Origin: Herpetosiphon giganteus
GTDB taxonomy: Bacteria; Chloroflexota; Chloroflexia; Chloroflexales; Herpetosiphonaceae
Assembly (NCBI RefSeq): GCF_016907925.1
Contig: NZ_JAFBCZ010000020.1
Location: forward strand, 1-64,000
DNA length: 64,000 bases
Reading direction: 5' to 3'
Under the pieces are notes generated by a model, which was given only the letters and a program-made list of their open reading frames with translations, did no database searches and was not told the origin of the DNA. This document shows positions 26,580 to 46,242 of this stretch, piece after piece (position 1 is the first letter of the stretch; the number at the start of each line of letters is the position of its first letter). The position numbers and the translations under genes are program-made.

Positions 26580-26664
26580 AGCCATCTCTACCACTATGAG
26601 CAAATGCTCCAAATACTGAAATTACAATATTCCAATTTTAGCATAGCTTGTAGTAGGCCGTTAT

Positions 26665-27411
26665 TTAGCGTGCGCCAAACAACGCAGTGCCTACCCGCAC
26701 AAACGTCGAGCCTTCCTCGATGGCCACCTCAAAATCGCCGCTCATGCCCATCGAAAGCTCTGGCAAAGGGCGATCAAGCTCCTGCTCAAGCGCATCGCGC
26801 ACGTCGCGCAAGGCCCGAAAGCATGGCCGCACCACGCCCTCAACATCATCAGAATAGGGCGCGATCGTCATAAAGCCCTGCAAATCGATCAACGGTAGCT
26901 GAGCGATCGCTCGAACTTCGGCCACAAACTCGCGCCACGAAGGGTTGCGCAGGCCACCAGCTAAGGCAAAGCCATCTTTGGAGCGCTCGCCAGAAACATT
27001 CACTTGCAGCAAAATTGGCAAGGGCTGCGGAATGAGCGCCGCTTCTTCATCAACAATTCGGTTGAGAATTTCGGCTAGTTTGAGGCTATCGATTGAATGG
27101 ATTAATGAAAAAAGCTTGGCAGCGCGCCGCGCCTTGTTGCGTTGCAAATGGCCAATTAAATGCCAGCGGGTTTGCACTATGGCTTCTGGCGTTTGCAGGG
27201 CAATTTTCTCCTCGGCCTCTTGCACCCGATTTTCGCCCACATCGTGAATACCAGCCGCCAAAACCGCGTTGACCCGCAGCATTGGATGGGTTTTGGTGAC
27301 CGCAATCAAGCGCACGCTGGCGGGATCGCGCTGGCTGCGCTGAGCAGATTGGTCGATCCGCTGCTGAATCTGGGCAATCTGTTCCAACAATTGAGCCTGA
27401 TCAAACGGCAT
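26665..27411 (-). CDS. yggS: YggS/PLPBP pyridoxal phosphate homeostasis protein
   Basis: A 248-residue single-barrel PLP-binding protein that buffers free pyridoxal phosphate. The cofactor lysine is residue 40 in LIAVTKTHP. Other family motifs are VGENRVQEAEEK, WHLIGHLQRNKA, SIDSLKLAEILN, LLQVNVSGERSKDGF, LQGFMTIAPY and ELSMGMSGDFEVAIEEGSTFVRVGTALFG. The ATG at 27411 overlaps the end of pgeF by 11 bases. pgeF-yggS is a common gene pair in division/cell-wall regions. Confidence 0.95.
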   Translation of the reverse strand: MPFDQAQLLEQIAQIQQRIDQSAQRSQRDPASVRLIAVTKTHPMLRVNAVLAAGIHDVGENRVQEAEEKIALQTPEAIVQTRWHLIGHLQRNKARRAAKLFSLIHSIDSLKLAEILNRIVDEEAALIPQPLPILLQVNVSGERSKDGFALAGGLRNPSWREFVAEVRAIAQLPLIDLQGFMTIAPYSDDVEGVVRPCFRALRDVRDALEQELDRPLPELSMGMSGDFEVAIEEGSTFVRVGTALFGAR

Positions 27412-28207
27412 GACGTACCTCGCGTAGACCAATCACCGCAGCAAAGCGACCGGTAGCTCCGGCTTCGTGACGATGCGAAAAGAATCGATCATTATGACAA
27501 GCTGTACATAAATTCATGTTAATCAGGTTGGCAGGTTGAATGCCAGCTTGCAGCAACCAATGGGCATTTGCCGCCCATAAATCAAAATGCGGACGCTGTT
27601 TGCCAAGTTGGCGCAACAACACATGGGTCGAATGCTCGCCGAATGCTTGTTCAACCGCGCCGATCACTGGCTGATCAACCTCATAGCAGCATGGGCCAAT
27701 CGCAGGGCCGATAGCCGCTAGAATATTGGCTGGCTCAGAGCCAAATTGGGCTTGCATGGTTGTGATGACCACTTTGGCAATATTATTAACTGTGCCTTGC
27801 CAACCGGCGTGAGCCACGCCAACCGCCTGAGCAATCGGATCAAAAAAGAGCAATGGTGTGCAATCGGCAAAATTGGCCCACAGCACCAACCCAGGCTGGT
27901 TGGTAACTAAACCATCGGCAGGCGGCAAGGTTGTTTCGCGCTCGCTCGCGCCGCGTCCGCGCTGCAATTCGCCCACCACCGCAACGGTTGTGCCATGAAC
28001 TTGGCCAGCCAAAACTGCATCGTCTAGGCTAAAACCGACCTGTTCTGCAAAGCGGCGGCGATTTTCCAAGACGGCGGCGGGATCGTCGGGCCGCGAAAAA
28101 CCAAGATTGAGGGTTGCATGGGGTGGTTTACTGACCCCACCTTGGCGGGTTGAAACGCCATGAATCAACTCAGGATACCGCAAGAAGCGTTGGATTTGCT
28201 CGATCAT
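27401..28207 (-). CDS. pgeF: Peptidoglycan editing factor PgeF (YfiH family)
   Basis: A 268-residue laccase-fold protein. In E. coli this family removes wrongly incorporated amino acids from peptidoglycan precursors. The conserved zinc/copper-type ligands are in GQVHGTTV, DCTPLLFFDP, VGVAHAGWQGT, IGPAIGPCCYEVD and NLCTACHNDRFFSHR. GGGGG precedes the ATG at 28207; a longer start at 28219 is possible. It overlaps yggS at its end. A terminator for the phasin gene lies just upstream, so the pair has its own promoter. Confidence 0.93.
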   Translation of the reverse strand: MIEQIQRFLRYPELIHGVSTRQGGVSKPPHATLNLGFSRPDDPAAVLENRRRFAEQVGFSLDDAVLAGQVHGTTVAVVGELQRGRGASERETTLPPADGLVTNQPGLVLWANFADCTPLLFFDPIAQAVGVAHAGWQGTVNNIAKVVITTMQAQFGSEPANILAAIGPAIGPCCYEVDQPVIGAVEQAFGEHSTHVLLRQLGKQRPHFDLWAANAHWLLQAGIQPANLINMNLCTACHNDRFFSHRHEAGATGRFAAVIGLREVRHAV

Positions 28208-28297
28208 GCCAACCCCCATCAGATTGCTTGAATTTAATCAGCAATACAAAGCGTGCTAGCGCCCATCATAACACCAGATGCAGCTTGGTTGAAAAGC

Positions 28298-28340
28298 AAA
28301 AATCCCCCTTGAATGGTTTTTCGCCATCCAAGGGGGATTT
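28298..28340 (-). terminator. Intrinsic terminator after the phasin gene
   Basis: AAATCCCCCTTG (28300-28311) pairs with CAAGGGGGATTT (28329-28340), extended by ATGG/CCAT inside. A T5 then GCTTTTC tail follows on the minus strand. Confidence 0.9.
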
Positions 28341-28368
28341 GCACTTTGCGAAGCAGCAGGCCTAGGGG

Positions 28369-28764
28369 TTAGGCGTTGCGGCTTTTCTTCAATTCTTCGA
28401 CGCGGGCCGAAAGTTGGGCAATTTTGTCGCTCAGCTCGTCGATATCGCGCTTTGATGGAATATTCATGCGGTTGAGCACTTGTTCGAGCCGTGATTCAAC
28501 CCGTGATTCAGCTTCATCGGCAACATGCTCAACTTCGCGTTTGCGGCGCGAAAGCACATCATTCAACAAGGTTTTGGCTTCACGTTCGGCAACTTCACCA
28601 CGATCAACCAAGCGACCAACGAATTGCTCCATTTCGTCGCGGGTCATGGCGACAGCGCCAACAGCAGCCAACATCAATTTGCGCACGCCATCGACAAATG
28701 GCACGCCACGATCGTCAGCATCTTTCTTGATTTCATTCAAGCTTACTTCGATTTCATCAGCCAT
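28369..28764 (-). CDS. Phasin-family (PhaF/PhaI-like) protein
   Basis: A 131-residue helical protein of the polyhydroxyalkanoate granule-associated family. A hydrophobic helix (GVRKLMLAAVGAVAMTRDEMEQFVGRLVDRGEVAE) is followed by the typical KTLLNDVLSRRKREV region. A C-terminal coiled coil contains NRMNIPSKRDIDELSDKIAQLSARVEELKK, the usual heptad tail of this family. The phrase NIPS(K/R) recurs in the neighbouring phasin-like protein, so the two are related. No PHA synthase gene is in the window. It may coat lipid or polyester granules or have a broader structural role. Confidence 0.83.
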   Translation of the reverse strand: MADEIEVSLNEIKKDADDRGVPFVDGVRKLMLAAVGAVAMTRDEMEQFVGRLVDRGEVAEREAKTLLNDVLSRRKREVEHVADEAESRVESRLEQVLNRMNIPSKRDIDELSDKIAQLSARVEELKKSRNA

Positions 28765-28827
28765 TACAATAACTCCTTTGGATTGACCTATCGCTCACCA
28801 GTTGTTCCAGTATAGCACCGCGCCAAA

Positions 28828-29565
28828 TTAGCCGTGAAGCGCTTCGATCCGGCGTTCAACTTCGCGTTGAACGGTAACGCGCTTGGCGTGGCTGGCTTCA
28901 AACAATTTGACGTGATGTAATTCGGCGATGCCCAAGCCATCGAGCTTGGCAATGGCTTCTTCAGCGCGCAAGGCTTCGTAGCCAGCAAAAGGCTCGCGAA
29001 TTTCGCCATCGACGGTCAGGTGTTTGGCAACCGATTGTTCAATTTCGCGTTGAACGGTGACGCGTTTGGCGTGGTTGCTTTCGTAGGCTTCCAAAGCAAA
29101 CAGTTCATCAAGGCTCAAGGTTGGCAACAAAACAATAATTTCTTCGGCGGTAAGATTTTCGTAGTTGGCAACTGGGGCGATGCTGCCATCGCTGCCAAGT
29201 TCGCGCAATTGAGCGTTAAGTTGGGCAATGCGGGTATCGAGCACGCGCAATGTTTTACGTGAAGGAATGTTCAAGTTTTCCAAGACATCGCTCACGCCAC
29301 GCTCAACAGTTTGGCTGGCATCTTGCACATCGTTATTCAAATTGTTTTGCTCGCGGCGGAGGCGCACATTCAAATCTTTCAAATCGCCGCGAACCCCGGC
29401 GGCCACTTTTTCGCCGCGCTTGATCAATTTTTTGAAGGTTTTTTCACCGTTATCGATAGCCAACCCAGCAATCCCCAAGCCTGCCAACCATGAACGGCGA
29501 GCAACTTTTTGGGCGCTTTTGACTTGTTTTTCAGTCGTGTCAGCAATTTGGCGAATGATCGTCAT
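28828..29565 (-). CDS. Phasin-like protein with two C-terminal helical repeats
   Basis: 245 residues. The N-terminal 120 residues are phasin-like: a hydrophobic helix (RRSWLAGLGIAGLAIDNGEK), a basic helix, then NLNIPSRKTLRVLDTRIAQLNAQL, as in the neighbour. The C-terminal part carries two tandem units of about 45 residues. Each runs YE-L-AEE, a short leucine helix, [YF]E-x-[SN]-HAKRVTVQRE[IV]E. The HAKRVTVQRE block is identical in both. This duplication is absent from simple phasins. It lies 63 bases upstream of the shorter phasin gene on the same strand, so they are probably co-transcribed. What the repeats bind is unknown. Confidence 0.78.
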   Translation of the reverse strand: MTIIRQIADTTEKQVKSAQKVARRSWLAGLGIAGLAIDNGEKTFKKLIKRGEKVAAGVRGDLKDLNVRLRREQNNLNNDVQDASQTVERGVSDVLENLNIPSRKTLRVLDTRIAQLNAQLRELGSDGSIAPVANYENLTAEEIIVLLPTLSLDELFALEAYESNHAKRVTVQREIEQSVAKHLTVDGEIREPFAGYEALRAEEAIAKLDGLGIAELHHVKLFEASHAKRVTVQREVERRIEALHG

Positions 29566-30157
29566 AGATCGCTCCTTTTGGGTAAACCGCCAAGTGGCAG
29601 TTTTTTTATAGCATGTGTTGTTATTTCGATGTCATGACGCGTTGCGTTATCAAGAATATAACACAGCGCGTCATAAGTGTCAAGAGCGATTAATCACAGA
29701 ATTTGGCGATCTCTCCGATTTACAGGCCGCTGATCCCTAACATCTATTGCCTCAGCTAGGCTCTTGGCGATTGGCTTTGGACTATAGAAACAGCAATCAA
29801 ACAATCATTCGTGGAATTCGTGTAATTCGTGGCTAAAAGAGATTTGGCGATTGGATTTGGGCGATTGGCTTTTGGAACCTAATCTGTGGTCATCTGTGTC
29901 AATCTGTGGCGAAAACAAGGTATGAAGGATGAGGCTATTGGCTTTGGGCTATGGAAACAGCAATCAAACAATCATTCGTGGAATTCGTGGCTAAAAAACT
30001 CAAATTCGCGCGTTTTGCGATTACGTTCTTCGTGCTCTTCGTGGATCAAATGCTTCGCGCTCTTCGTGGCCTAGCGGACTGGGTAGCGGCTAGGGAGAAT
30101 TATTAATGTTTAAGCCCAAAGCATTAAACGGATAGCACGCATGAATCAAGGCCGATG
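29566..30157. other. Repeat-rich intergenic gap, no gene
   Basis: 592 bases without a convincing gene. It contains the 53-base direct repeat listed next, AATCTGTGG/CATCTGTGTCAATCTG words (29880-29910) and CTTCGTGCTCTTCGTGGATC words (30029-30060). Short open frames follow the repeats. Confidence 0.7.
29770..29989. repeat. 53-base direct repeat, two copies
   Basis: Copies at 29770-29822 and 29937-29989 match at 51 of 53 positions. Both start ATTGGCTTTGG and end GTGGAATTCGTG. The copies are 114 bases apart in the same orientation, consistent with a recent local duplication of a dispersed repeat. Confidence 0.85.
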
Positions 30158-30814
30158 TTAGATGCTGTCACGCTGATGTAAGCCATGCTCAACCGCTAAC
30201 AGTGCCGCTTGGGTGCGATCGCCAACCTCAAGTTTGGCTAAAATGGTACTCACATGATTACGGACTGTGCCTTCAGAAAGCCGCAGATCGTCAGCAATAC
30301 TAGCGTTGGTATAGCCCTTGGCAATTAGATTGAGGACGGTGCGCTCTCGTTCGGTTAGGCGCTGGGACAGCTGGCTTGTTGCTGGGTTGCTGCGCGCTTG
30401 GGCAACCTGATTCAGCAAGCGGCCAGTCACATGCGGGTCAACGTAGGCATTGCCAGCGACTGTACCACGAATCGCATTCACCAAGTCACTGTGGGCCATA
30501 TCCTTTAGCAAGTAGCCTGCGGCTCCAGCCCGAATCGCCTCAAATAACCATTCATCATCATCGTAGGTCGTCAAAACAAGCACCTTCACGCTTGGTTGGT
30601 TCGCCCGAATCTGGCGGGTGGCTTCGATGCCATTCATAACGGGCATTTTGAGATCCATCAGCACCAGATCTGGCTCCCATTCCGCACTCAGATGGACTGC
30701 ATCACGGCCATTACTCGCGGTAGCAACCACCTTAAGGTCGGAGGCAAGATTGAGCATAATCGAGAGGCCATCACGCACGACCGCCTGATCGTCACAGATT
30801 ACAAGCTTGATCAT
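30158..30814 (-). CDS. NarL/LuxR-family response regulator
   Basis: A 218-residue DNA-binding response regulator. The receiver domain has acidic residues Asp8/Asp9 (VICDDQ), phospho-acceptor Asp54 (DLVLMDLKMP), the switch threonine region VLVLTTYDDD and Lys in GYLLKD. The C-terminal LuxR HTH (LTERERTVLNLIAKGYTNASIADDL...TVRNHVSTILAKLEV) binds DNA as a dimer. The gene begins 3 bases after the kinase stop, so they form one operon. Its likely targets are the TGTCAT-type sites in the gap upstream of the kinase gene. Confidence 0.95.
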   Translation of the reverse strand: MIKLVICDDQAVVRDGLSIMLNLASDLKVVATASNGRDAVHLSAEWEPDLVLMDLKMPVMNGIEATRQIRANQPSVKVLVLTTYDDDEWLFEAIRAGAAGYLLKDMAHSDLVNAIRGTVAGNAYVDPHVTGRLLNQVAQARSNPATSQLSQRLTERERTVLNLIAKGYTNASIADDLRLSEGTVRNHVSTILAKLEVGDRTQAALLAVEHGLHQRDSI

Positions 30815-30817
30815 CTA

Positions 30818-32137
30818 TTACTCCTTGCCATGAAAATGCACCGTGACGCAGGTTCCTGCATTGGAACTACTGGTTATGCTGATCGTGCCGCCAAGTTCGT
30901 GAACCCGCTCTTCCATGCCCGTGAGGCCAAAATGGCCGTTGAGTGGGGTAGCCGTAAGGTCAAAGCCACAACCATCATCGCGCACAATTAAACAGAGGTC
31001 GCTATGATCATGGCTCAATTGCACCAATAACTGTTGCGCTTGCGCATGGCGAATCGTATTCCGAATGGCTTCTTGGGCCACGCGATAGAGACAGGTTTCG
31101 ATCTCCAACGCCATGGGTGGAAGCAGCGGCGGAATCACAAGCTCAAGCTTAATTGGACTGGTGGCAGCCAGTTGTTCCGCCAATTGGCGGATGGCTAAGG
31201 CAAGCCCCAAATCGTCAAGCGGGCGGGATCGTAAGGCTTTGAGGGCGAGGCGGGTTTCTTGCAGCCCATGGCGAGCCGCCTCCAAAGCTGAATCTTGCAA
31301 GCTATGACTGGTTTGTGGCTCAATCGTGCGATACAGCTTGGCCGCCTCCAACTGAACAATTAAGCCACTCAGCGCATGCGCCAAGGTGTCATGTAACTCG
31401 CGAGCTACTCGATTGCGCTCACGGCTGATGGCGAGTCGTTCTTGGGTTCCTGCATAGTGACGCAGCTGCGCATGGGCTTCCCGCAGCGCCGCATTTTGCG
31501 AACGAAGCCGCTGCATCAGCGCCGAGAGGGCGTAGCCAAAGACCAAAAAGGTGCTGGTTTGCACAATCGTGATTGCAACTGCGGAGCTAAACCGTGGCGC
31601 GCGTAGCAAAATCGGCCCCAAAATCAGCGCACCAGTGGCAAAACAAAACCACACAACCTGTCGCCAGCTATACGTCCATGCAACCATCACAACGGCAACA
31701 CATAACATCGGGCATAAGCGCAGGACGACCAAGCCAGGTTCGGCAGTAATCGGGCCTTGGCCGCTTGTAATCAGCGGAGTAAGGGCGATTGGAACGACCG
31801 AAATCAGCGCCAGAATTAGCGGCATAAACCAGCGCCCTAAAGTTCGTTGGGCCGCATCCCACGTGGCTAAGCCAAACACCATCCCCGCTAAAGCCATATG
31901 AATTGCATAATAAAACCATGGCAAGGGATACGCCCCTGGCCGCGAGATTAACGAAACCCAATCAAGCCCCGTTAAAATTAAAAAATAGCTCATCCACAAC
32001 AACGCCACACTCTGCAAAATCCGTTTAATCGTCAAGCCGCCACTGCCATGATCGGGGTCGTGGAAGGCATTCAACAAGGCGCTGGATTGGTTGGCTGGCG
32101 CTGCATGGATGAACGTCGGTGACTCGTGGACATGCAT
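30818..32137 (-). CDS. Sensor histidine kinase, DesK/HisKA_3 type
   Basis: A 439-residue membrane kinase. About six hydrophobic segments (residues 40-210) form the sensor, with no large extracellular domain, so the signal is probably in or at the membrane. A coiled linker leads to the HisKA_3 box with His249 (ERNRVARELHDTLAHALSGL) and an HATPase domain with VAQEAIRNTIRHA (N box), VRDDGCGFD (G1) and GHFGLTGMEERV. The ATG at 32137 has AAGGA 6 bases upstream, better than the ATG at 32143. It is divergent from the giant surface-protein gene. Confidence 0.93.
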   Translation of the reverse strand: MHVHESPTFIHAAPANQSSALLNAFHDPDHGSGGLTIKRILQSVALLWMSYFLILTGLDWVSLISRPGAYPLPWFYYAIHMALAGMVFGLATWDAAQRTLGRWFMPLILALISVVPIALTPLITSGQGPITAEPGLVVLRLCPMLCVAVVMVAWTYSWRQVVWFCFATGALILGPILLRAPRFSSAVAITIVQTSTFLVFGYALSALMQRLRSQNAALREAHAQLRHYAGTQERLAISRERNRVARELHDTLAHALSGLIVQLEAAKLYRTIEPQTSHSLQDSALEAARHGLQETRLALKALRSRPLDDLGLALAIRQLAEQLAATSPIKLELVIPPLLPPMALEIETCLYRVAQEAIRNTIRHAQAQQLLVQLSHDHSDLCLIVRDDGCGFDLTATPLNGHFGLTGMEERVHELGGTISITSSSNAGTCVTVHFHGKE

Positions 32138-32178
32138 AGACATTCCTTGCGGTGGTCATGGGTCAGTTGCCCATCGGC

Positions 32179-32184
32179 ATTATA
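32179..32184 (-). promoter_or_regulatory. Extended -10 promoter of the two-component operon
   Basis: On the minus strand TGC-TATAAT forms an extended -10 about 40 bases before the kinase ATG. No good -35 is present. An AAATGTCAT site (32213-32221) sits about 45 bases upstream of the expected start point. Confidence 0.65.
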
Positions 32185-32212
32185 GCATGGCGATTTTTGA
32201 GCGCGCAGTGCC

Positions 32213-32283
32213 AAATGTCATGATTCTGTAGCCCCAACCTATGACAAATGTCATCCCTTAGACACTGCCAAATAATGACATTT
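32213..32283. promoter_or_regulatory. Three-site operator array between divergent genes
   Basis: AAATGTCAT at 32213-32221, the palindrome ATGACA-AA-TGTCAT at 32241-32254, and ATGACATTT (the exact inverse of the first) at 32275-32283. The centres are about 31 bp apart, or three helical turns, so all are on one face of the DNA. The outer two lie about 45 bp from the two expected transcription starts. They are probably bound by the NarL-type regulator. Confidence 0.65.
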
Positions 32284-32312
32284 TGCACGCAGGGCCAAGC
32301 CCTCTGCTGTGC

Positions 32313-32318
32313 TATACT
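32313..32318 (+). promoter_or_regulatory. Candidate -10 of the giant surface-protein gene
   Basis: TATACT lies about 70 bases before the ATG. The hexamer at the -35 position (CAGGGC) is not a match. With the operator centred about 46 bases upstream of the expected start, this fits an activator-dependent promoter. Confidence 0.5.
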
Positions 32319-32387
32319 CCGCAAACTTTCGCACCGTGCTCCGCATACATTGGCTGTCAAGTCATCCCTACCTGCCTTGGAGGTTCC

Positions 32388-35300
32388 ATGAAAATCCGAT
32401 CGCATCGCTCTGGGTTGCGTGCTTTGTCGCTCATCGTCGCTGTTCTTGTGCTGATTTCGGTTGGCGTTGGCGTTGGCAATCAGGCTAAAACCCCACAGGC
32501 CATGATCGAACGGGCGTGGGAACAGGCTGGGGCAAGTGGCAGCTATCGCTATCAGGCAAGTATCGAGCAAACAACCTATCCGGTTGCCGCAATCACCAGC
32601 GCGGGCAGACAACCACAGGTTGATCATGTGGCGATCGAAGCCACGGTTGATGCAAGCAACCAGGAACTCGAAATGCAGCTGTGGAATGGCGCAGATCGCA
32701 ATCCCACGAAAGCGCATTCGCTCCGCTTGCATAAAGGCCAGGTGGAACAACGCCAAGGGCTTGGCGCATGGCAGCCAGGTGACGTGCAGGATCTCAATGG
32801 AATTGCGCCCGCAGGAAATTTGCTGAGTTTTCTGATTGCTGCCGATGATGTGCAAGTACTCGGTCAGGAAACTCGGGCTTTTGATACGGCAAGCGGAGCC
32901 ACATTGGATCTGAGTTTAACTTATGATCATGTTGGCTTTTCGCTTGATGGCAGTCGCTTGGCCGACCAACTCGCGCCCATGCTTGAGCAGCACATTCGCG
33001 CAAGTCGCAATGTGCCTGCCCATGTTGTGCTCGATGCAGGCCAAGCCTATCGCACCATGCAGGGTCGCGGCGAGCTGTGGATTGACGAAGCAGGCCTGCC
33101 GCGTCGCATCGCCTTGACCATTGAATTTCCTGCCCAACGTGGTCAAGGTCGTTCGGTTGCCACGATTGTTGGCGATTATAGCAACTTCGATCACAGCCGT
33201 TTAGCGCTTGCTTCAACTCCGTTTAGCGCCGACCCCATCACATGGATGCGGTTTCGTCTGATCGAAGGCTTGCCAGCTTTGCGCCTGTTGATACTGCAAA
33301 TTGCCAGTATTGGGCTGCTGCTCGCGGTAATTGCGCTTTGGATGCGGCGTTTACACAATCGCACCGTCCATACCTACACCGTGGGTTTGGTCATTCTCTC
33401 TTTGCTGACCACGCCCTTGTTCCGCGCCGATGTGACGGCGGCCTTTGCTGCCGAGCAAAAGAGCGAACAAACTGAGCGCGAGCAGCAGATAACCCAACAG
33501 CAAGAGCTGCATGATGCCGTCGCCAGCCAAAAAACCAGCGCATGGAACCCCCAGCACAATCCCCAAACCACGCCAGTGCAGCCAGCGCTTGTCGATGCTG
33601 AATTAACTGCCTTATTAACCGAACAACCAGCCCTTGCTTTACCAGGCATGCTCGCCTCAAGCGATACGACCGATAGCGATAGCGATGGCCTGACCGATTA
33701 CGACGAGGCGATTTGGGGTGCTTGCCCCAGCGCAAGTTCAACTAGCGATGCCTGTGCAGGAGTTGCCGATTCCACCGATAGCGATGGCGATGGCCTTGAC
33801 GATGGCACGGAAGTCCATCAACTTGGAATCTTGCCCGACGAAGCCGATAGCGATGGCGATGTGATCGCCGACAACCTCGAAGTAACGGGATTTACGCTCG
33901 GCGGAATCCAGTGGTATCTCGACCCCTATGCCAGCGACAGCAACAGCGATGGCCTGAGCGATGGGATCGAATGTCAAGTTTGGGCTGCGATGTCGAGCGC
34001 CTATGATACAACGGCGGCGTGCCCCGATAGCGATGGCGATGGCATGCCCGATGTCTTTGATCTCGATAATGATGGCGATGGGGTCAATGATGCGGTTGAT
34101 GCCTCGCCCAACGGCGTGATTTCTCAAACCTTCAACGGTGATACGCCGCTTGCATTAAGCATCAGCCAGCTTGAAACCAACAAGCCCGTGTATGTTGATT
34201 TTCAAATCACGCCCACGAATCCTGATCATCTTGATTATTTTGGCAGCGTGCTCGATTGGCCAACGGGCGATAGCGCTGGTCAAATTCAGCGCCACTTAGA
34301 AACCAACTTCGCCAATACCGACAACCTGACCTTGCGCAGCACTGATGCGAACGCTGCGAACGGCGATATTCGGCTGCTGCCCATGCTCCAAATTCGCATG
34401 CCCTACACCAGCGGCCACTACGCCAATTTGCCAGTCAATGCAACCTATAGCGGCACTAATCGTGATCGTGCGGTTGAGGTTGATAATTGGATCGATAGCA
34501 GTGCAATTGAGCGCTACGATCTCAGCGTCTACGATTCAAGCAGTGGCGACGGCGAATTATTGGCCTATCTGCCAGTCAGCTATATTGCCGATGAAACTGA
34601 TGGCGGTGTGGTTGGCTTTACGGCGCGCATGCTCTATCAACCGAGCCAAGGCAGCAACGGGCGGGCAACATGGGGCGCAGCCCACGAAGTGCGCTTAGTG
34701 TGGCTCGTTGAAATGTTAACCGATACATGTAGCGACCCAAGCGACCTCAGCACCTGCGAAGACAGCTACGCGATCATCCAAACCTATTACGATACATGGA
34801 AATTGGCTGGCTTGACCGTGACTGAGGAACATGGCACCGATACGGCGATTGTCTATGAAAATCCGGTTGAGGATACAAACCTCGCGCTCGATAGCGATTT
34901 GTGGGTCGCCAGCTGGAACATGAGCAACAGCTTTTTGCGCGGACGCGATTGTAGCAGCATCAATGGCAGCGGCACATGCACCAGCAATGGGAGCCGCGAT
35001 GTGACGATCAGCAATTTGGCGAGCAGCATCGATGGCTGGGCAGGCGGGGCCGCAAAGCATGATCTGGCGGTGCAACGCTTTACTTATACCCACCATGATG
35101 CCTATGTTGAAGATTTAACGATTACGCGCACGACCGCGTTGTTGAGCAGTGTGTTTACGCCCTATGCCAGCCAAACCAATCCCACCCTGCTTTTTGCCAG
35201 CGAACATCAAAGCCGCTCGGTTAATGTTGACGACAGCAGCGTTACAAGTAGCGCAATTACGCTTGATTTTGCTGCGGCAAATGTGCCGTTGGTAACCGAA

Positions 35301-38300
35301 GCGCGCATGAGTTGGGCACCCTACAGCTATAGCAATGGCGCGTGGGGCAACTACGACCCTGAGCAATATTTAACCCTCTTGAGCACTCTTCTCGTTGACG
35401 ACGAATTTTTTCAAGCCGATGGCTCAAGCACCAGCCTCGATGACGTAAGCGGCAAGCAACTGTGGGCGCAAAGCTACTATGCAACCTTGCTGCAAGGGCT
35501 TTCAGAAACCGTCGAAAGCACAGGCACAGTATTGTGGACGCAGAGCACCGACGTGGATGAAGGCTTGTACTCGCCAGGCTGGCCATCGTCGACTCCGAAG
35601 GGCTTTACCTTTATTGGCAACGCCTACCTCAGCACTATCATCGAATCGGTCACCAAGTTTGCTAAATATAAGTCGATGGGCTATAGCGGCTATAGCTTTT
35701 GGAGCGTGATCAATCATGCCTATAAAAAGGGCTTTACCCAATATACCTTTGCCTTTGAACGCTTGCTACAAAATAAAAAGAGTATGGCGCTGCATGGATT
35801 AATTGGCGTAACCACGATTGGTTTGGCGGTTGGGGCAACCTTGTTTGCGGTTGGCTATCTCACTGGCGATGATGCAAGCTTTCAGGCTGGCGTTTATATT
35901 CTGAATGCGGCAACCGTGGTTGGGGTTGGCTTGTATATCGCCAATATGGTGCACAAATTCTATACCCTCTACCAAACAGGGATGGGCGTAAGCGCGGTCT
36001 TAAAATCGACGACCATGGCCAATTTTAAGGCGGTTGGCAAGTTTGGCTTGCTGCTGGGCGTGCTGATTCCATGGATCATCTTTCTCGCCACCTCTGGCGA
36101 CGTGTTGTGGAGTATGATTACCACCGGCGAGGGGGGCAGCATTGCTTTTACGGTTTATGTGGCCTATACAATCGCCAGCACCATTATCACGGTGGTGATG
36201 TTTGCCTTGGAATATGTGCCTGGGATTGGCCAACTCTTCTCGTTCCTCTTTTTCATGGTCTATTTTGTCGATGGCATTCTGGCGATTTTTGGCCAGCAAA
36301 CGGTCTTCGATCGCATGACCGAAGCACTTGCCAAGTTGCTCTACGATGTTGATCTCGTGGTCAAAAATATGGATTCGTCCGATCGCTTGACGCTTGATAT
36401 TGTTAATCGCAGCCTTGGCAGCCCCGAAGATGGGTTTGTCGTGACCAATAGCATTTCATACACGATGCGAGTCACTAACACCCTGCTGTATGGCACGCAA
36501 TATTCGGCATCCGATGCGAATAAGGCCTCGTTCCTCTACACACTCGACGATGAGCCAGTCGATTACCATACCCAGATTAGCAAGGGCGATATGCGTGGCG
36601 ACTGGGTTGCCATCGGCGGGCGCAAAATTCAATTGACCAAAACGATTGAATCGGTCGACGCGTTAGATTTAACGCGAGTTGGCCTCGGCATCAATCGCTC
36701 GCTCGATGGCTTGCTCTATTTAAATGAAGCCTATCAAGTACCCTACACTGGCTGCTGGCTTGATCTCTTCAGTTGCAGCACCGAAACCGTTGGTGGCTCC
36801 AGTGAAATCAATATTGGGGCCAGCGAAACCCTCGATATTTTGCCGGCAACTGTCAGCGAATTTTATGCGCTCGATTGGAACGAGGATGGAGCGTTGCAGT
36901 TTCCCAGCCAACGCGATCACGATGGCGATGGCTTGCTCAGCACGGCGGCGGGCGGGGTTGACCCTGATGATCTGAGCCGCGATGCCGATGACGATTTATT
37001 GCTTGATAGCTATGAATTGGCTCAAGGCAGCGACCCAGAAGCAAGCGATAGCGATGGCGATGGGCTTGACGATGCCCGCGAATTGAGCCTTGGCACCAAT
37101 CCCTTGCGCAACGATAGCGATGGCGATGGGCTTGACGATAAGACCGAAAGCACCACCGGCTGGTTGATTAGCTACACTGATGCCACGAGCAATCGTCGCT
37201 ATACGCGGGTTTGGTCGGACCCCAATGTTGGCGATATTGATGATGATGGTTTGAACGATTTACAAGAGTTTGTCTATGGTTTCAACCCATGGGTCGCCAC
37301 CGATGCCTCATTAATTGATACTCTTGTGCAATTTGCCGAGATGAACGTGCAGGAAGATACTGCGGCAGCCGTGTTGTTGCGCTTGGAAGAAAGTGCTGAC
37401 GCACAAGTATTTGCCAATAGTGCCAGCGCCACCAGCTTTGCCTGTGCCAGCACTGCCAGCTGTCCGCTGGCAGCCCAAAGCGGGCGCTATGGCAATGCGG
37501 CCAGCTTCGATGGCAGCAACGATTATCTCGAGGCAAGCGTTCAGCTCAATCCAACGGCTTATACCCAATCAGCCTGGGTCTATCCCACCAGCAGCGATAG
37601 CAATTTCCATGGCATTGTCGGCTACGATGGCGGAGTGTTGGCCCAACGCGCACCAAGTATCTACCTTTTTCAGGCCGGGCGGGTGCAAGTTGGTTTTGGC
37701 GATGGCAGCACATGGAATAGTCTCTCAACCAGCAGTACCGTGCTCAGCAGCAATGCTTGGAGCCACATTGCCAGCACCTTTGATGGCACGACGATGCGCA
37801 TCTATATCAACGGGGTTGAGCAAGCCAATTCCACCGCAGCCAGCGGCAAAGTGCCCTATCCAATCAGCACTTTGCGGGTTGGCCGCATCGACAACTATTT
37901 CAAAGGCGCAATCGACGAAGTGAGTTTGTTTGATCGGGCGCTTTCGGCCAGCGAAGTGGTTGCGCTTAAGGATGGCCGCTACAATCCCGATGATTTGATT
38001 GTGCAGCCAGGCGCAGCCTTGCAGTATTCAACCAACGTCACCAACACCCTAGCCGCCCAAGGCATTCATGGCCATTTGTTGGGCAGCAGCAGCGCCAGCG
38101 ATCCCGTGGTTGCCCAGCCGAAGATCGCCTTGCGCTTCGAGGATGCGGATCGGAAGAGCGGCTTTAGCCCAGCTTCTGGCGAGAGCGAAGCAGCAACCTG
38201 TGTTGGCACGACCTGCCCAGCCAGCGATCTGGTCAGTGGTAGCGATCGCTCGCTGGCATTCGACGGCGTTGATGATCAGCTCTCGATTGGCACGCTGGCC

Positions 38301-41300
38301 TACGAAACCGCCTTTCAAGCCTCAACCTTCTCGTTCAAAGTAAAATTGAACGCCTTGCCAAGCGCCGGCAAAACTATGAGCCTGATTGCAACCGAAACAA
38401 CCCAAGCCTATGGGCTGAATGTCTCGGTCAATAGCAGCGGCAAACTGGTCGTGGCGTTAAATGATGTCAGCCCAGCCTTGACTGGCGGCATCACCATGGC
38501 CACCAACACCTGGATTACCATCACGATTAATGTCAACGACAAACAACTGCGCGTCTATCAAAACGGAACCTTAGATAGCGGACTCAATAACAATGTACGC
38601 TTGCGGCTCGTGGTTGGGGCTGGCACGTTGGGCAATAATAGCGATGGAACTAGCCCATTGCATGGCAATCTCAACGACATCAGCATCATCAACAATAATG
38701 CCGAAACCGTCTTTGCGCTTGGCTTCGATGAACATAATAGCAGCCTACGCACCAGTTTTGCCAACACTGCCAGCGGTGGCAGCACCGTCACCTGTGCGAC
38801 GACGGCAACCTGTCCAAGCTTAACCGCTGGTGTAACCAACGAGGGCCTGCTGTTCGATGGCAGCGACGATTATTTGCCCTTGCCTGCCGTGGCGAGTAGC
38901 GCAGCGGGAACAAGCGGCTCGCTGAGCTTTAAACTCAAATTGACGGCGCTCCCAGCCAGTGGTTCCTACTACTATTTACTCGATAATGGCTGTTCAAGCT
39001 CGGCGGGCGCAGGCTATTGTTTACGCGCCTTCGTTGATTCAGCTGGGCTAATCTCGATGGGCTTGGTCAACCGCAGTACAACCAACGTCGCCTTTGGGCC
39101 ATTTTCAACGACCGCTGCTGGCGGCTTCAGTGGCAAACTTGGCAGTTGGGTCACGGTGGCAATTAGCTGGAACCTCGCCGCAGCGGCAGGCGCAACCAGC
39201 ACCTTCACCATCGCCACAACCTACAATGGCACGACCACAACGGCTAGCAGTAGCGGCACCAGCACCTACTGGCCCTTGATCACGACCGATAGCAATGCGC
39301 GGTTTGGGCGACGCGGGAGTGGATCGATGCCGCTCAACGGGGCGATTGACGATTTCGTTGCCACCAGCTACGCGCTTAATTTTGACCAACCAAGTTTTAA
39401 CGTTGAGCAAATCAATCGGGTCAATGCGGGACGGGTTGCGGCATGTCGGGCATTCTATAGCTGTCCCACTGCGACCAGCGCTGGCAAATTTGGCTCGGCG
39501 CTGCGCTTCGATGGCAGCGATGATTATATGGTGCTTGATCATACCTTGGCCAATGATTTCAGCATCGCATTTTGGATGCAATCGAGCCAAACCACGGGCA
39601 GCGCCAGCGCATGGTGGCAGGGCAATGGCTTAATCGATGGCGAGGTTGCGGGCAATGCCAACGACTTCGGCATTGCCTTGGGTGATGGCGGCAAAATCTT
39701 GTTTGGGGTTGGCAACCCGACAGCCAGCGATACAACCATCAAAGGTGGCAGCGTCGCCAATGGCAGTTGGCATCATGTGGTGGCAACGCGGGTCAAACAA
39801 AGCGGTGCGATGCGATTGTATGTTGATGGCGCGTTGGTCGCCAGCGGCACTGGCAACACCGCCAGCCTGAGTGCACCACCCTTCTTGCGCCTTGGCATGA
39901 TCCAAACGGGCTATAATGCCTACGCAGGCTTGCTCGATGAAGTTGTGATGCTGCCCGCAGCGGTTGATCTGGCAGGTGCACAATTGCTGATGCAAACCAC
40001 CTATCCCATGATCGCGCTTGCCAACGACTTCACAACCTTCCAACTCGATGCACTTTCGGCCAGCACGGTGAGCGCCGCTGCCACCGTGAGCAGCAATGCG
40101 GTAACCAGCCGCCATACATTCAGCCAAGAGGTCGAGGCCGCAATCGATCTTCAATCGACGATTGTGTATCCCGTGACCGATAGCAATGCAGCAAACATGC
40201 CGCTGCTCATGCCGTTTGAAGAAGTGCCAGGCGAAACCACATTCAACAACTATGGCACGCTGACGGGCTACAGCCAAAGCAACGACATGAAAACCCCAAC
40301 CTGCTATACCACGATTGGCTGCCCAACCACAGGCATGCACGGCGTGGTTGGACGGGCAGCATCGTTCAATGGCAGCGGCGATTGGCTCAGCTGTACCTAT
40401 TCTGGGGTTTTGGGCTTGCCCTGTGCGTGGGGTGAAATCAACATTCGCACCGTGGCGGCGTGGGTCAAGGCCGATCGCGGCACGATTGCCGATTTCCGTG
40501 GCTCGCTCGGCAGTAGCGGAATTGAGTTGGATTACAACAGCTTCAAAGTAACAATCAACGGGACAACCTATCGAATCGCGATTGATCTGCCGGAAAATGA
40601 ATGGGTGCATGTCGCAGCAACCGTCGATATGACCAGCCGCATAGCCAACGTCTACGTGAATGGAGCGCTATCCGGCTCGACCAGCATTGGCAGCAGTGGA
40701 ACCTACAACGGCAGTTTCCCCTCGATTGGGGCCAATCGGGCAGGAACATTTGGCAACCTTGGAGCCGATGGCGATTTCTTCCATGGCGCGATGGATGATT
40801 TGCGTGGCTATACTGTCACGCTCTCAGCCAGCCAAATCAAACAACTCTACACCGAATCAGCACCAGCCATGGCCTTCGATTTCAATGCGGATTCAAGCAG
40901 TGCCAGCAGCATTCGCGATAGTTCGGTCAACGGCTATACCGGCGTACTGCGCGGCTCGGTCTGCAATACTCTGACCCTCAATTCTGCCGATTTCGGCAAC
41001 TTTGGTGCTGATGGGGTTAATATTCGCTTGGAGAGCAGCGATCAACTGATTCTGAGTATCCCGTTGATCACAACTGCCGTGCAACAACTGAATGTGAGCG
41101 TGCCAATCTGTGGCCTAGAAACGCTCACCATTGAGCAAATTGCGGCCAATGGCACGGTTTCCTCCTATGCCATGCTGATCTTGAATGCGGACACGACAAA
41201 TCTCACAACCAGCGCGACCTTAGGCTCGTATCCATTCGACCATATGGTGTTGAACTATAGCTTTGCAACGCCCGCAACCAGCAGCGCACCCAGCCTCACC

Positions 41301-44300
41301 GATGGCAAAATCGGCCAGACCATGACCTTTGGCGGAGCTGGCGCGGTTGAAGTGCAAAGCCCAACCGCTGTTTCAGCCCTCACCAGCACCTTTAGCCTAA
41401 GCGGCTGGATCAATCCAGACGATGTTGCTGGCTTCCAACAGATTATCGCCAGCGGCATGGATGCCAGCAACAATAATGGGTTCAGTCTCGAATTGAACGA
41501 TAATGCGCTTCAATTCCGTACCTTGGGTGTAAAAACCTATGCCAGCAGCGCCAGCGTGCGCGCCGAAGTCTGGCAGCATATCGCCGTGGTCTTTGATAGC
41601 AACTATGATGCGCTGTTTTATGTCAATGGAGCATTACAACAAACCATCGATGGCTCAGCCGTTGCCAAAGCCAACACCGATGATCCAACCTATCTTGGCG
41701 GCAGCGCAAGCAGCATTGGCGTATTGCAAAACTTCTTCCGTGGCCAACTCGATGAGCTGGTGATTTATGACCGCCAACTAACCACCGGCGAAATCTATGC
41801 TATGTATCTCCGCGATCTGCGTTGGTATAGCGCTCGCAGCGCGGTCGAGCTTCAGGTTGATACCGACGCGCCAAGCATCACCCTGCTCAGCGATGCGGCC
41901 TACGTGGCCAATCAACCAACAACGCTGGTCGTCTCGACGATCGATCCAACCTCAGGGGTACGCTTGCTTGACGTTGGGGTCAAACGCCCCAATACCAGTA
42001 GTTACAGCTGGTCGAGTGCGTCGCTCTGTGCCGAATCGCTCAGCGTTGCGACCAACGCCGCGTGGTGTTACAGTTTTGACCCGACCAGCCTCAGCGGCGC
42101 AGGCAGCTATAGCCTGCAATTCCGCGCCGTCGATGCGGTCGGCAATCAAACGATTTCGCCAGCCTATGCAATGAATATCGATCAGATAGCACCAACCGTC
42201 GCGAGCACCTACAACAACCACTGGCAACCGCTCGTCGCCAGTGCCAGCGATGATCTAGCTTGGACAGTGGCGCTCAGCGGCACACTCAGCGATAGTGGCA
42301 GTGGCATTGATCCAAGCGCGGCGCAACTGAGCTTAATTGATAGCACGGGCGCTGTAGCAGGGCTAGATCATGCCCAAACTGTCAGCGTCAGCGGCACTAC
42401 TTGGAGCATCAGCTATGGCTTTGCCAACAAACGCCCATCGGGCCGCTATCAACTGCGTTTCAGTGCCGCCGATGCCGTTGGCAACCAGTGGTCGGGAGTT
42501 ATTGGGAGCATTCTGCTTGATGGCCGTGCGCCTACCATGGAGCTTGCGCCCGACCTGCTGCCTTCGCGGATTATCAGCACCACACCAAGCCTGAATGGGC
42601 TTGTGGTCGAAAAACCACGCTGGGGTGGCGAGATCGCTGCCTTCCCATTTGCCGAAGCCAACGGCGCAACCAGTTTTGCCGATTATTCGGCGAGCCAGCT
42701 GACCGCAACCTGTACAGGCCAGACCTGTCCAAGTGGCGTGAGCGGGTTATTTGGCCGTGCGCTCAGCTTCGATGGTAGCAACGATAGCCTGACTATCGCA
42801 CCAACCACGACCCTTGATCTCGGCACAGCTACCCTCAGCGTATGGATCAAACCAAGCTGGATTTCGGGAACGCTTGGCTATGCGCCGACGATTGCAGCCC
42901 AGAGCAACGGCAGCACACCAAATTGGCGCTGGCAGCTGGGTGCAAATTATCGCAGTATGCACCTAACGACGGGGAACACAACGACAAGCCTACCACTCAC
43001 TATAATACCCAATCAATGGTCGCATCTCGCCTTGGTTCAAGCAGGCGATAGCTGGACTGGCTATCTGAATGGGATCGCGCTTGGCACGGTTGATCAAGCG
43101 TTTGGGACGACGACCAACTTGCCACTATACCTTGGCTCGAATGGCGGCAGCCAATTCTTCGCAGGCCAGCTTGATCAAGTGACGATCTACGATCGGGCTT
43201 TGTCGGCAGCAGAAATCTATGCCGTGGCTCAAAGCTCGGTTGCGGGAAGTAGCCAAGCTCAGGTTTGGCTGGCTCCCGACGCAACAATGTTGCCCGCCAA
43301 CCCACGGATCAGCTATGATTTTGCCGACGTTCGCGGGGCAACCAGCTTTACCGACGCAAGCGGCAATGGCCATACTGCAACGTGCACCAACTGCCCAGCC
43401 GCAACCACGGGCTGGACTGATAGCGAAGCGCTCTGGTTTGATGGGGTTAACGATGGCCTGAGCGTGACGATTACCAACAATCTGAGTTTGACAAGCTTTA
43501 CCCAAGCAGCCTGGATCTATCCAACTGGCAGCGATTCGGGCTATCACGCGGTGATGGGTTATCAACCAGGTTCGCTCAATCAGCGTCGCCCACCAAGCAT
43601 TTATATCAATCAAAAGAATCGAGTTCACGCTGGATTTGGCGATGGCAGTGTCTTTACATCGCTGCAAACCGGCCCCGTTTTGAGCATCAATGCATGGAAT
43701 CACCTTGCGACGACCTTTGATGGTCAAAACTATCGCGTGTATGTGAATGGCACGGCGGTGTATACCTCGACGGCCAGTGCAGGCCGCACGCCATATCCGG
43801 TTTCCAAGTTGGAGATTGGCAAGGCCGATACCTATTTCAACGGATCAATCGATCAGGTCCGAATCTATGATCGGGCATTGTCGGCCAAGGATATTGGGTT
43901 GTTGGCTTCAAGCTGGACAAATGCGCCGCTTACGGGGGCAGGCACAGCCAGCGCCGATTGGACATATGCAATTCCCAATGGGCTTCAAGGCCTGTACAGC
44001 CTGCGCATGCGAGGCACTGATAGTTTCAGCAACACCGATACAATCGCCACGGTGTGGCGGGGTATGATCGATAGCGTTGCGCCGACGATCAGCCTCAGTG
44101 CACTCCATCGCGGTGGTGGCTATGCCGCCTCAACCGTCTATACCGTAACGGCCAGCGATCTGTTCCTTGATCCCGCAACGCTCAGCATGCCATGTCAACC
44201 GCTAACCAGCAGCCTGACATCCAATCCCATGAGCGGCACAAGCACATTAACGGCGACATGCAGCCTTGCAGGCCATCAACAAGGCCTCGTAAACGCAAGC

Positions 44301-45488: not shown

Positions 45489-45523
45489 AACGGAGTCGCA
45501 ACCGCCTAATTAAACCCAACCAT

Positions 45524-45557
45524 GCCCATGCACCTAAGCAAACGTAGGTGCATGGGC
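45524..45557. terminator. Hairpin after the giant gene
   Basis: GCCCATGCACCTA pairs perfectly over 13 bp with TAGGTGCATGGGC around an 8-base loop, 36 bases past the stop. There is no T tract, so it could be an mRNA 3' stabiliser or a weak terminator. The rest of the 256-base gap to 45750 shows nothing else. Confidence 0.65.
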
Positions 45558-45750
45558 AATACACTCGAACAATACCCAACCAAGCATCCAGCATCGGCAT
45601 CAAGTGCCTAAACCTAAATCGTGCCTCCCCAGTCACGTTGAATTTAAGCAGTTGCATCGATTCAAGTCTCCTCAATCTATTCCAAATAAAACAGATGTGC
45701 TATGATGGAGTTATATTTCACAGGAGCTTGATTAAGTATAGGAGATGCAG

Positions 45751-46242
45751 ATGAATATTGCAGCGTTTCGCCATTTCTACGACTATCACTTTGCCGAAAA
45801 CCGCCAGCTCTTGGAATATTATGTCGCGCAATTATCCGATCAGCAGTTTATCCAAGAAGTAGCATATTCGCTCGGCTCGGTGCGCAACCAACTTGTGCAT
45901 TTGATGAGTGTTGATCAAACCTGGTTTAGTGGCTTGCGTGGCGTAGAATTTCCCGAACCACTTGATCCCAACGCGTTCCCTAATCTGGCCACCTTGCGCA
46001 GCTATTGGGCTGGGGTTGAAGCTATGATGCGCGAGTATTTAGCGAATTTGCAGGATGCAGATTTGCAAACCAAACCGCTTGATGGCGAAGATGAAAATTT
46101 GATTGTCTGGCAAGTATTATTGCAAGTTGTCAACCATGGCACCGATCATCGCGCCCAAGTGCTGCGCATGTGCCACGATTTTGGGGTCAAAACCAGTTCA
46201 CAAGATTATATTTTTTATGTCTATGACAATCCTTCAGCCTAA
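45751..46242 (+). CDS. DinB-family protein
   Basis: A 163-residue four-helix-bundle protein of the DinB/YfiT superfamily. The three metal histidines fit LVHLMSVDQTWF in the second helix and NHGTDHRAQVLR in the fourth. Members include thiol transferases and stress proteins; this one cannot be assigned a substrate. GGAG lies 6 bases before the ATG at 45751, which is better than the ATG at 45745. It stands alone, ending at a hairpin shared with the convergent narK gene. Confidence 0.9.
   Translation: MNIAAFRHFYDYHFAENRQLLEYYVAQLSDQQFIQEVAYSLGSVRNQLVHLMSVDQTWFSGLRGVEFPEPLDPNAFPNLATLRSYWAGVEAMMREYLANLQDADLQTKPLDGEDENLIVWQVLLQVVNHGTDHRAQVLRMCHDFGVKTSSQDYIFYVYDNPSA

Follow-up and report, generated by a model that had tools for sequence, protein, structure and literature searches.

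Which regulator uses the three similar sites that lie between a histidine-kinase operon and a divergently oriented giant gene of Herpetosiphon giganteus, and do both transcription units respond to it? In this report, the window is the complete stretch of 64,000 nucleotides that was analysed. Judged from sequence comparisons, the array very probably serves as operator for the DesK/DesR-like (NarL-family) two-component system next to it, which would activate its own operon as well as the giant LamG-repeat gene. The genes on both sides are:

30158–30814, minus strand: NarL-type response regulator, 218 aa, with REC and GerE helix-turn-helix domains; D8, D9, D54, T83 and K104 are conserved
30818–32143, minus strand: sensor histidine kinase, 441 aa, with HisKA_3 and HATPase_c domains and a hydrophobic N-terminal half with several transmembrane segments
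32388–45488, plus strand: giant LamG-repeat protein, 4,366 aa; hydrophobic segment at the N-terminus, eight Laminin_G_3 stretches

The hydrophobic segments of the kinase are located within residues 42–209, and Pfam and PDB matches indicate no large sensor domain. Its best PDB matches are VraS and DesK chains. The phosphoacceptor site of the regulator is intact. Among the named relatives in the scans, Herpetosiphon geysericola (a G003-like contig) is the closest; its regulator is 97% identical. The kinase operon described in the first-pass annotation does contain kinase and regulator but nothing beyond them: about 590 bp without an assigned gene follow the regulator, and then come phasin-like genes. 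Besides the giant gene and the phasins, the neighbours at the locus include a laccase-domain protein and an alanine-racemase-like protein.

The giant gene is preceded by a Shine-Dalgarno-like GGAGG at 32379–32383. Its product, which is presumably located at the cell surface, closes with a long stretch rich in Thr, Pro and Ser and, after it, SYQIYLPMTIHGTP (window 45400–45488); no C-terminal membrane anchor was apparent when the sequence was inspected by eye.

The window contains three exact copies of the nonamer AAATGTCAT and no more, at 32213–32221 (+), 32246–32254 (+) and 32275–32283 (−), all inside 71 bp. By a first-order simulation, 64 kb should hold about 0.78 exact copies; in none of 40 simulated windows did any 9-mer occur three times within 71 bp. 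The real window holds one other kind of such triple, a CCCTCACCC-type repeat near 1863. Over the whole 6.16-Mb genome (window on contig C20), the nonamer is found 35 times and the reversed control 8 times. The positions of three operator copies between the kinase operon and the giant gene are thus confirmed. The nonamer that had been taken as the repeat unit is exact in its copies, but it is only half of a palindrome; the true unit is (A)TGACA-N2-TGTCA(T), and it is complete in the central site alone. For comparison within the genus, five Herpetosiphon-genus genomes (G000, G002, G003, G004 and G006) were used. The operators are:

32209–32220, minus strand: kinase-proximal operator, a degenerate palindrome TGCCAAATGTCA that reads TGACATTTGGCA towards the kinase; centre at about −42.5
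32241–32254: central operator, the full 14-bp palindrome ATGACAAATGTCAT (ATGACA-AA-TGTCAT) with the core TGACAnnTGTCA at 32242–32253; invariant in the five genomes of the genus
32276–32287, plus strand: giant-gene-proximal operator, a degenerate palindrome TGACATTTTGCA (TGACATTTGGCA in G003); centre at about −43.5

The central site is a perfect palindrome except for its two middle bases. Both outer sites have their intact half towards the centre and their weak half towards the promoter. The palindrome centres (32214.5, 32247.5 and 32281.5) are spaced by 33 and 34 bp, the nonamers by 33 and 29 bp. The earlier distance of about 31 bp averages the two nonamer gaps. An 18-bp inverted repeat (32208–32225 and 32271–32288) makes the array mirror-symmetric about the central site. 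The array sits exactly between two −10-like boxes:

32179–32187, minus strand: extended −10 of the kinase operon, TGCTATAAT, with the hexamer TATAAT at 32184–32179 and a predicted start at about 32172
32310–32318, plus strand: −10 of the giant gene, TGCTATACT, with the hexamer TATACT at 32313–32318 and a predicted start at about 32325

These are the −10 hexamers named in the first-pass annotation, which found no good −35 with either of them. The hexamers at a spacing of 17 bp read TGCGCG and CAGGGC, so that a TTGACA-like −35 is lacking on either side. A simple promoter scan returned only promoter-like matches built largely from the sites themselves. With the first base of the −10 set at −12, the centres of the outer sites are about 42.5 bp (kinase side) and 43.5 bp (giant side) upstream of the predicted starts, near the 45 bp proposed before; the centre of the central site is at about −75.5 and −77.5, respectively.

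This geometry can be read as follows. A dimer of the phosphorylated response regulator would bind tightly to the complete central palindrome and would assist a second dimer in occupying the degenerate palindrome that directly precedes each promoter, about three helical turns from the centre. The dimer at the outer site (centre at about −42 or −43) would then contact RNA polymerase at a promoter with a good −10 and no usable −35. With a central site common to both sides and outer sites that mirror each other, a single regulator is expected to activate the kinase-regulator operon to the left and the giant LamG-repeat gene to the right.

The palindrome is found upstream of related kinases well beyond the genus. 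Perfect copies of TGACAnnTGTCA are present directly upstream of such kinases in other Chloroflexia. Of the further regulator orthologues, G020, G039, G018, G061, G056, G037 and G087 have a perfect palindrome just before the annotated kinase start; that of G043, also perfect, overlaps the start. Perfect palindromes precede the kinase in 13 of 80 named loci, a set that partly overlaps that of the regulator orthologues. Labels of metagenome-assembled genomes among the loci with the palindrome include Anaerolineales, Spirochaetaceae, Armatimonadetes, Planctomycetota and Acidimicrobiia. In G007 (kinase 45–47% identical) the divergent arrangement is kept, with TGACATATGTCA. The giant side is weaker there, with the third site as TGACATGCGACA and TAGGAT at 65 bp. 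In G008, TGACATGTGTCA precedes a kinase on contig C8 that has no adjoining giant gene. The distance of 62–64 bp between the central-site centre and a kinase-side −10 recurs in G020, G043, G039, G018, G056, G028 and G007. The divergent neighbours vary (mannosyltransferase, Lcl_C protein, P450, HupE, CotH and methyltransferase-like genes) and are unrelated to each other; thus, the palindrome belongs to the kinase-regulator pair.

A census of all 1,024 five-base half-sites combined with spacers of 0–12 (13,312 dyads) was performed on 81 non-redundant kinase-upstream regions from several phyla. The two top entries, ATGACn4GTCAT (20 regions) and TGACAn2TGTCA (18 regions), are two views of one palindrome. 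Apart from its shifted or extended versions, no dyad occurs in more than four regions. Even the relaxed dyad TGACn4GTCA is missing from about half of the 81 regions. A different transcription factor, for example of the TetR or BlaI type, can hardly own the palindrome: it tracks the kinase-regulator pair over several phyla, leads this unbiased census and equals the DesR-type motif, while the case for such a factor comes from a TGACAnnTGTCA dyad at an aldo/keto-reductase-like promoter in G000 and a similar site in G005, which does not have the system.

The aldo/keto-reductase-like promoter (L068, 1475–1530; G000:C5:222125) was considered as a member of the regulon and rejected, as its site directly adjoins the −35 region and G005, which does not have the system, carries a similar one. 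The sequence ATGACAGATATTGACATCTGTCAT overlaps the −35 region of this gene, and similar sites (L278 and L283) were found in G006 and G005. Probably this is a repressor operator of another family. Other regulators, it appears from this dyad and the G005 site, can use similar sequence. A genus-wide search for the pattern of a proximal site plus −10 gave little besides the kinase promoter; degenerate variants on the giant side escape the pattern. The result suggests a very small regulon.

Further indications come from 35 regions of organisms beyond the genus in which the dyad TGACn4GTCA is present. Measured from the palindrome centre, −10-like hexamers in them cluster at 62–63, 52 and 30 bp, and the second TGAC half-site is located at 32 or 22 bp. 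Many of the related kinases look leaderless, with the −10 only 6–7 nt before the ATG (L195, L196, L209, L255, L173, L178 and others), and their probable start point is thereby fixed. In the leaderless kinases the palindrome centre is mostly 74–76, 64–66 or 41–42 bp upstream of the start codon, with a few outliers. The proximal site stays at about −42, and the distal site shifts by about one helical turn, the pattern expected of an activator bound along a single face of the DNA helix. On both sides, the window falls in the longer spacing class. The close vicinity of the sites to the −35 region could also mean that the regulator, or its unphosphorylated form, represses one or both promoters. We regard this as highly improbable because activated promoters typically show these features, namely no usable −35, site centres at about −42 and distal sites in phase. 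Furthermore, the related DesR and pneumococcal TCS11 regulate positively, and TCS11 is positively autoregulated (PMC11034029).

The central site equals the motif ATGACA-N2-TGTCAT of DesR from B. subtilis (PMC11034029). Read on the minus strand, it is exactly ATGACATTTGTCAT, the 14-mer in the motif ATGACATTTGTCAT-N7-AGTGACA of pneumococcal RR11 (PMC11034029). Therefore, the locus is assigned to the DesR-type autoregulated two-component systems, with a mirror-symmetric common operator. DesK-DesR of Bacillus subtilis and YvfT-YvfU share with it a HisKA_3 kinase with a multi-span membrane part, a NarL-type regulator, this operator and several binding regions per promoter (PMC7726353, PMC11034029). 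The corresponding traits here are the kinase architecture, the regulator with its phosphoacceptor, a central operator that is exact and outer ones that are degenerate, and several helically phased sites per promoter. The targets of the Bacillus systems, however, are desaturase or ABC transporter genes, whereas here they would be the own kinase operon and a giant LamG protein, served by a divergent, mirror-symmetric operator with a spacing of 33/34 bp. Desaturase or ABC transporter genes adjoining the kinase-regulator pair were not found among the neighbours at the locus, and for this reason the system is not filed as an orthologous DesKR.

TCS11 has the identical 14-bp motif and a second half-site at an offset of 22 bp, which is one of the two spacing classes among the relatives. 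In contrast to the window, which belongs to the three-turn (33/34-bp) class, TCS11 is a single-direction operon with ABC transporter genes and without a giant protein. VraSR and LiaSR also have a HisKA_3 kinase, and VraR has the solved regulator structure closest by sequence (8e-50, with DesR lower at 7e-34). Its published motif TMMRYCTRARGWYKGA (PMC11034029) is unlike the palindrome described here, and no VraR-type operator was found at the array. A liaF/vraT third gene is likewise absent from the operon. Accordingly, we place the regulator in the DesR/VraR/LiaR branch with a putative DesR-type operator and claim no DesKR orthology.

This type of switch is known from Bacillus; the two-way arrangement and the 4,366-aa LamG-repeat target are new. 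A Chloroflexota two-component system thereby gains a well-supported operator, and the DesR-type motif and its helical phasing reach well beyond Firmicutes. Anchoring at leaderless starts yields activator positions in the relatives from sequence alone. For the predatory genus, a giant LamG-repeat protein is tied to a specific sensor, and its inducing signal becomes directly testable.

Within the genus the intergenic region has diverged; what stays invariant in it is chiefly the array of three sites and the two −10 boxes. In all five genomes the kinase-proximal site is kept at +33 and the giant-proximal site at +34 from the central site. The kinase −10 hexamer is invariant at 63 bp from the central-site centre, and the giant −10 TATACT is found at 64–65 bp in each genome. 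The clearest array is that of G003 (TGCCAAATGTCA, TGACAAATGTCA and TGACATTTGGCA, spaced by 33 and 34 bp), in which each palindrome has at most one mismatch. G002 and G004 have extra repeat-like DNA between the kinase start and its promoter. These interspersed repeats are of the CCCTCACCCC(C)AACCCCTC type (L062 and L063); related repeats are found elsewhere in these genomes and at about 1863 of the window.

In the congeneric G005, kinase, regulator and giant gene are absent together as one block of about 16 kb (window 29690–45660). The matches on the phasin side (window 26605–29687) and on the DinB side (45662–46232) are only 1.39 kb apart there; the unrelated sequence between them (C91:35277–36670, about 1.4 kb) contains small ORFs.

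G008 has five giant homologues. Upstream of the paralogue on contig C172, TGACAATTGTCA is followed by a second site TGACATGAGACA 33 bp on and by TGCTAAGAT at 63 bp; the examined 2.3 kb, which reach to the end of the contig, contain neither a kinase nor a regulator gene. The paralogues on C118 and C88 have a single site 30–31 bp upstream of TATGAT (distances taken from the printed sequence). Outside this family, G042 is the only distant giant homologue with a perfect site upstream (TGACAGATGTCA, between a regulator orthologue and the giant homologue), and in most of the distant homologues (e.g. G014–G021) the palindrome is absent. The link to the giant gene is thus confined to this family and a few others.

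Both this absence and the many genomes in which the palindrome accompanies a kinase without an adjoining giant gene would fit a regulator that binds the array and autoregulates the kinase operon only, with the giant gene as a bystander next door. We consider this unlikely in view of the giant-side site and −10, which keep their distances in five genomes and more weakly in G007, the full arrangement at a G008 paralogue without a kinase nearby, the proximal-position sites of two more paralogues and the joint absence in G005. The earlier proposal that a single regulator switches on its own operon as well as the giant protein is well supported by the giant-side conservation, the G008 paralogue, the co-occurrence of the operator with kinase and regulator, its helically phased activator positions and the DesR motif; binding and activation are predicted. 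It is conceivable, though rather doubtful, that the symmetric operator is a true two-way switch. The high-affinity dimer at the centre would then nucleate a second dimer on either outer site and couple or alternate positive autoregulation with expression of the giant, possibly adhesive protein, all-or-none in part of the population. In this view the three genes for kinase, regulator and giant protein would form a single cassette that genomes acquire or lose as a whole.

Different repeats precede two further giant paralogues of G008. The paralogue on C21 (L116) has ACGACAAATTGTCGTCC...ACGACA upstream, beside a NarL-type regulator gene, and that on C257 (L117) has two direct repeats of about 22 bp, TGTCGAATTTGnAGGACA. 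These differences point to paralogous pairs of regulator and giant gene whose operators have diverged, the repeats being possibly owned by paralogous regulators.
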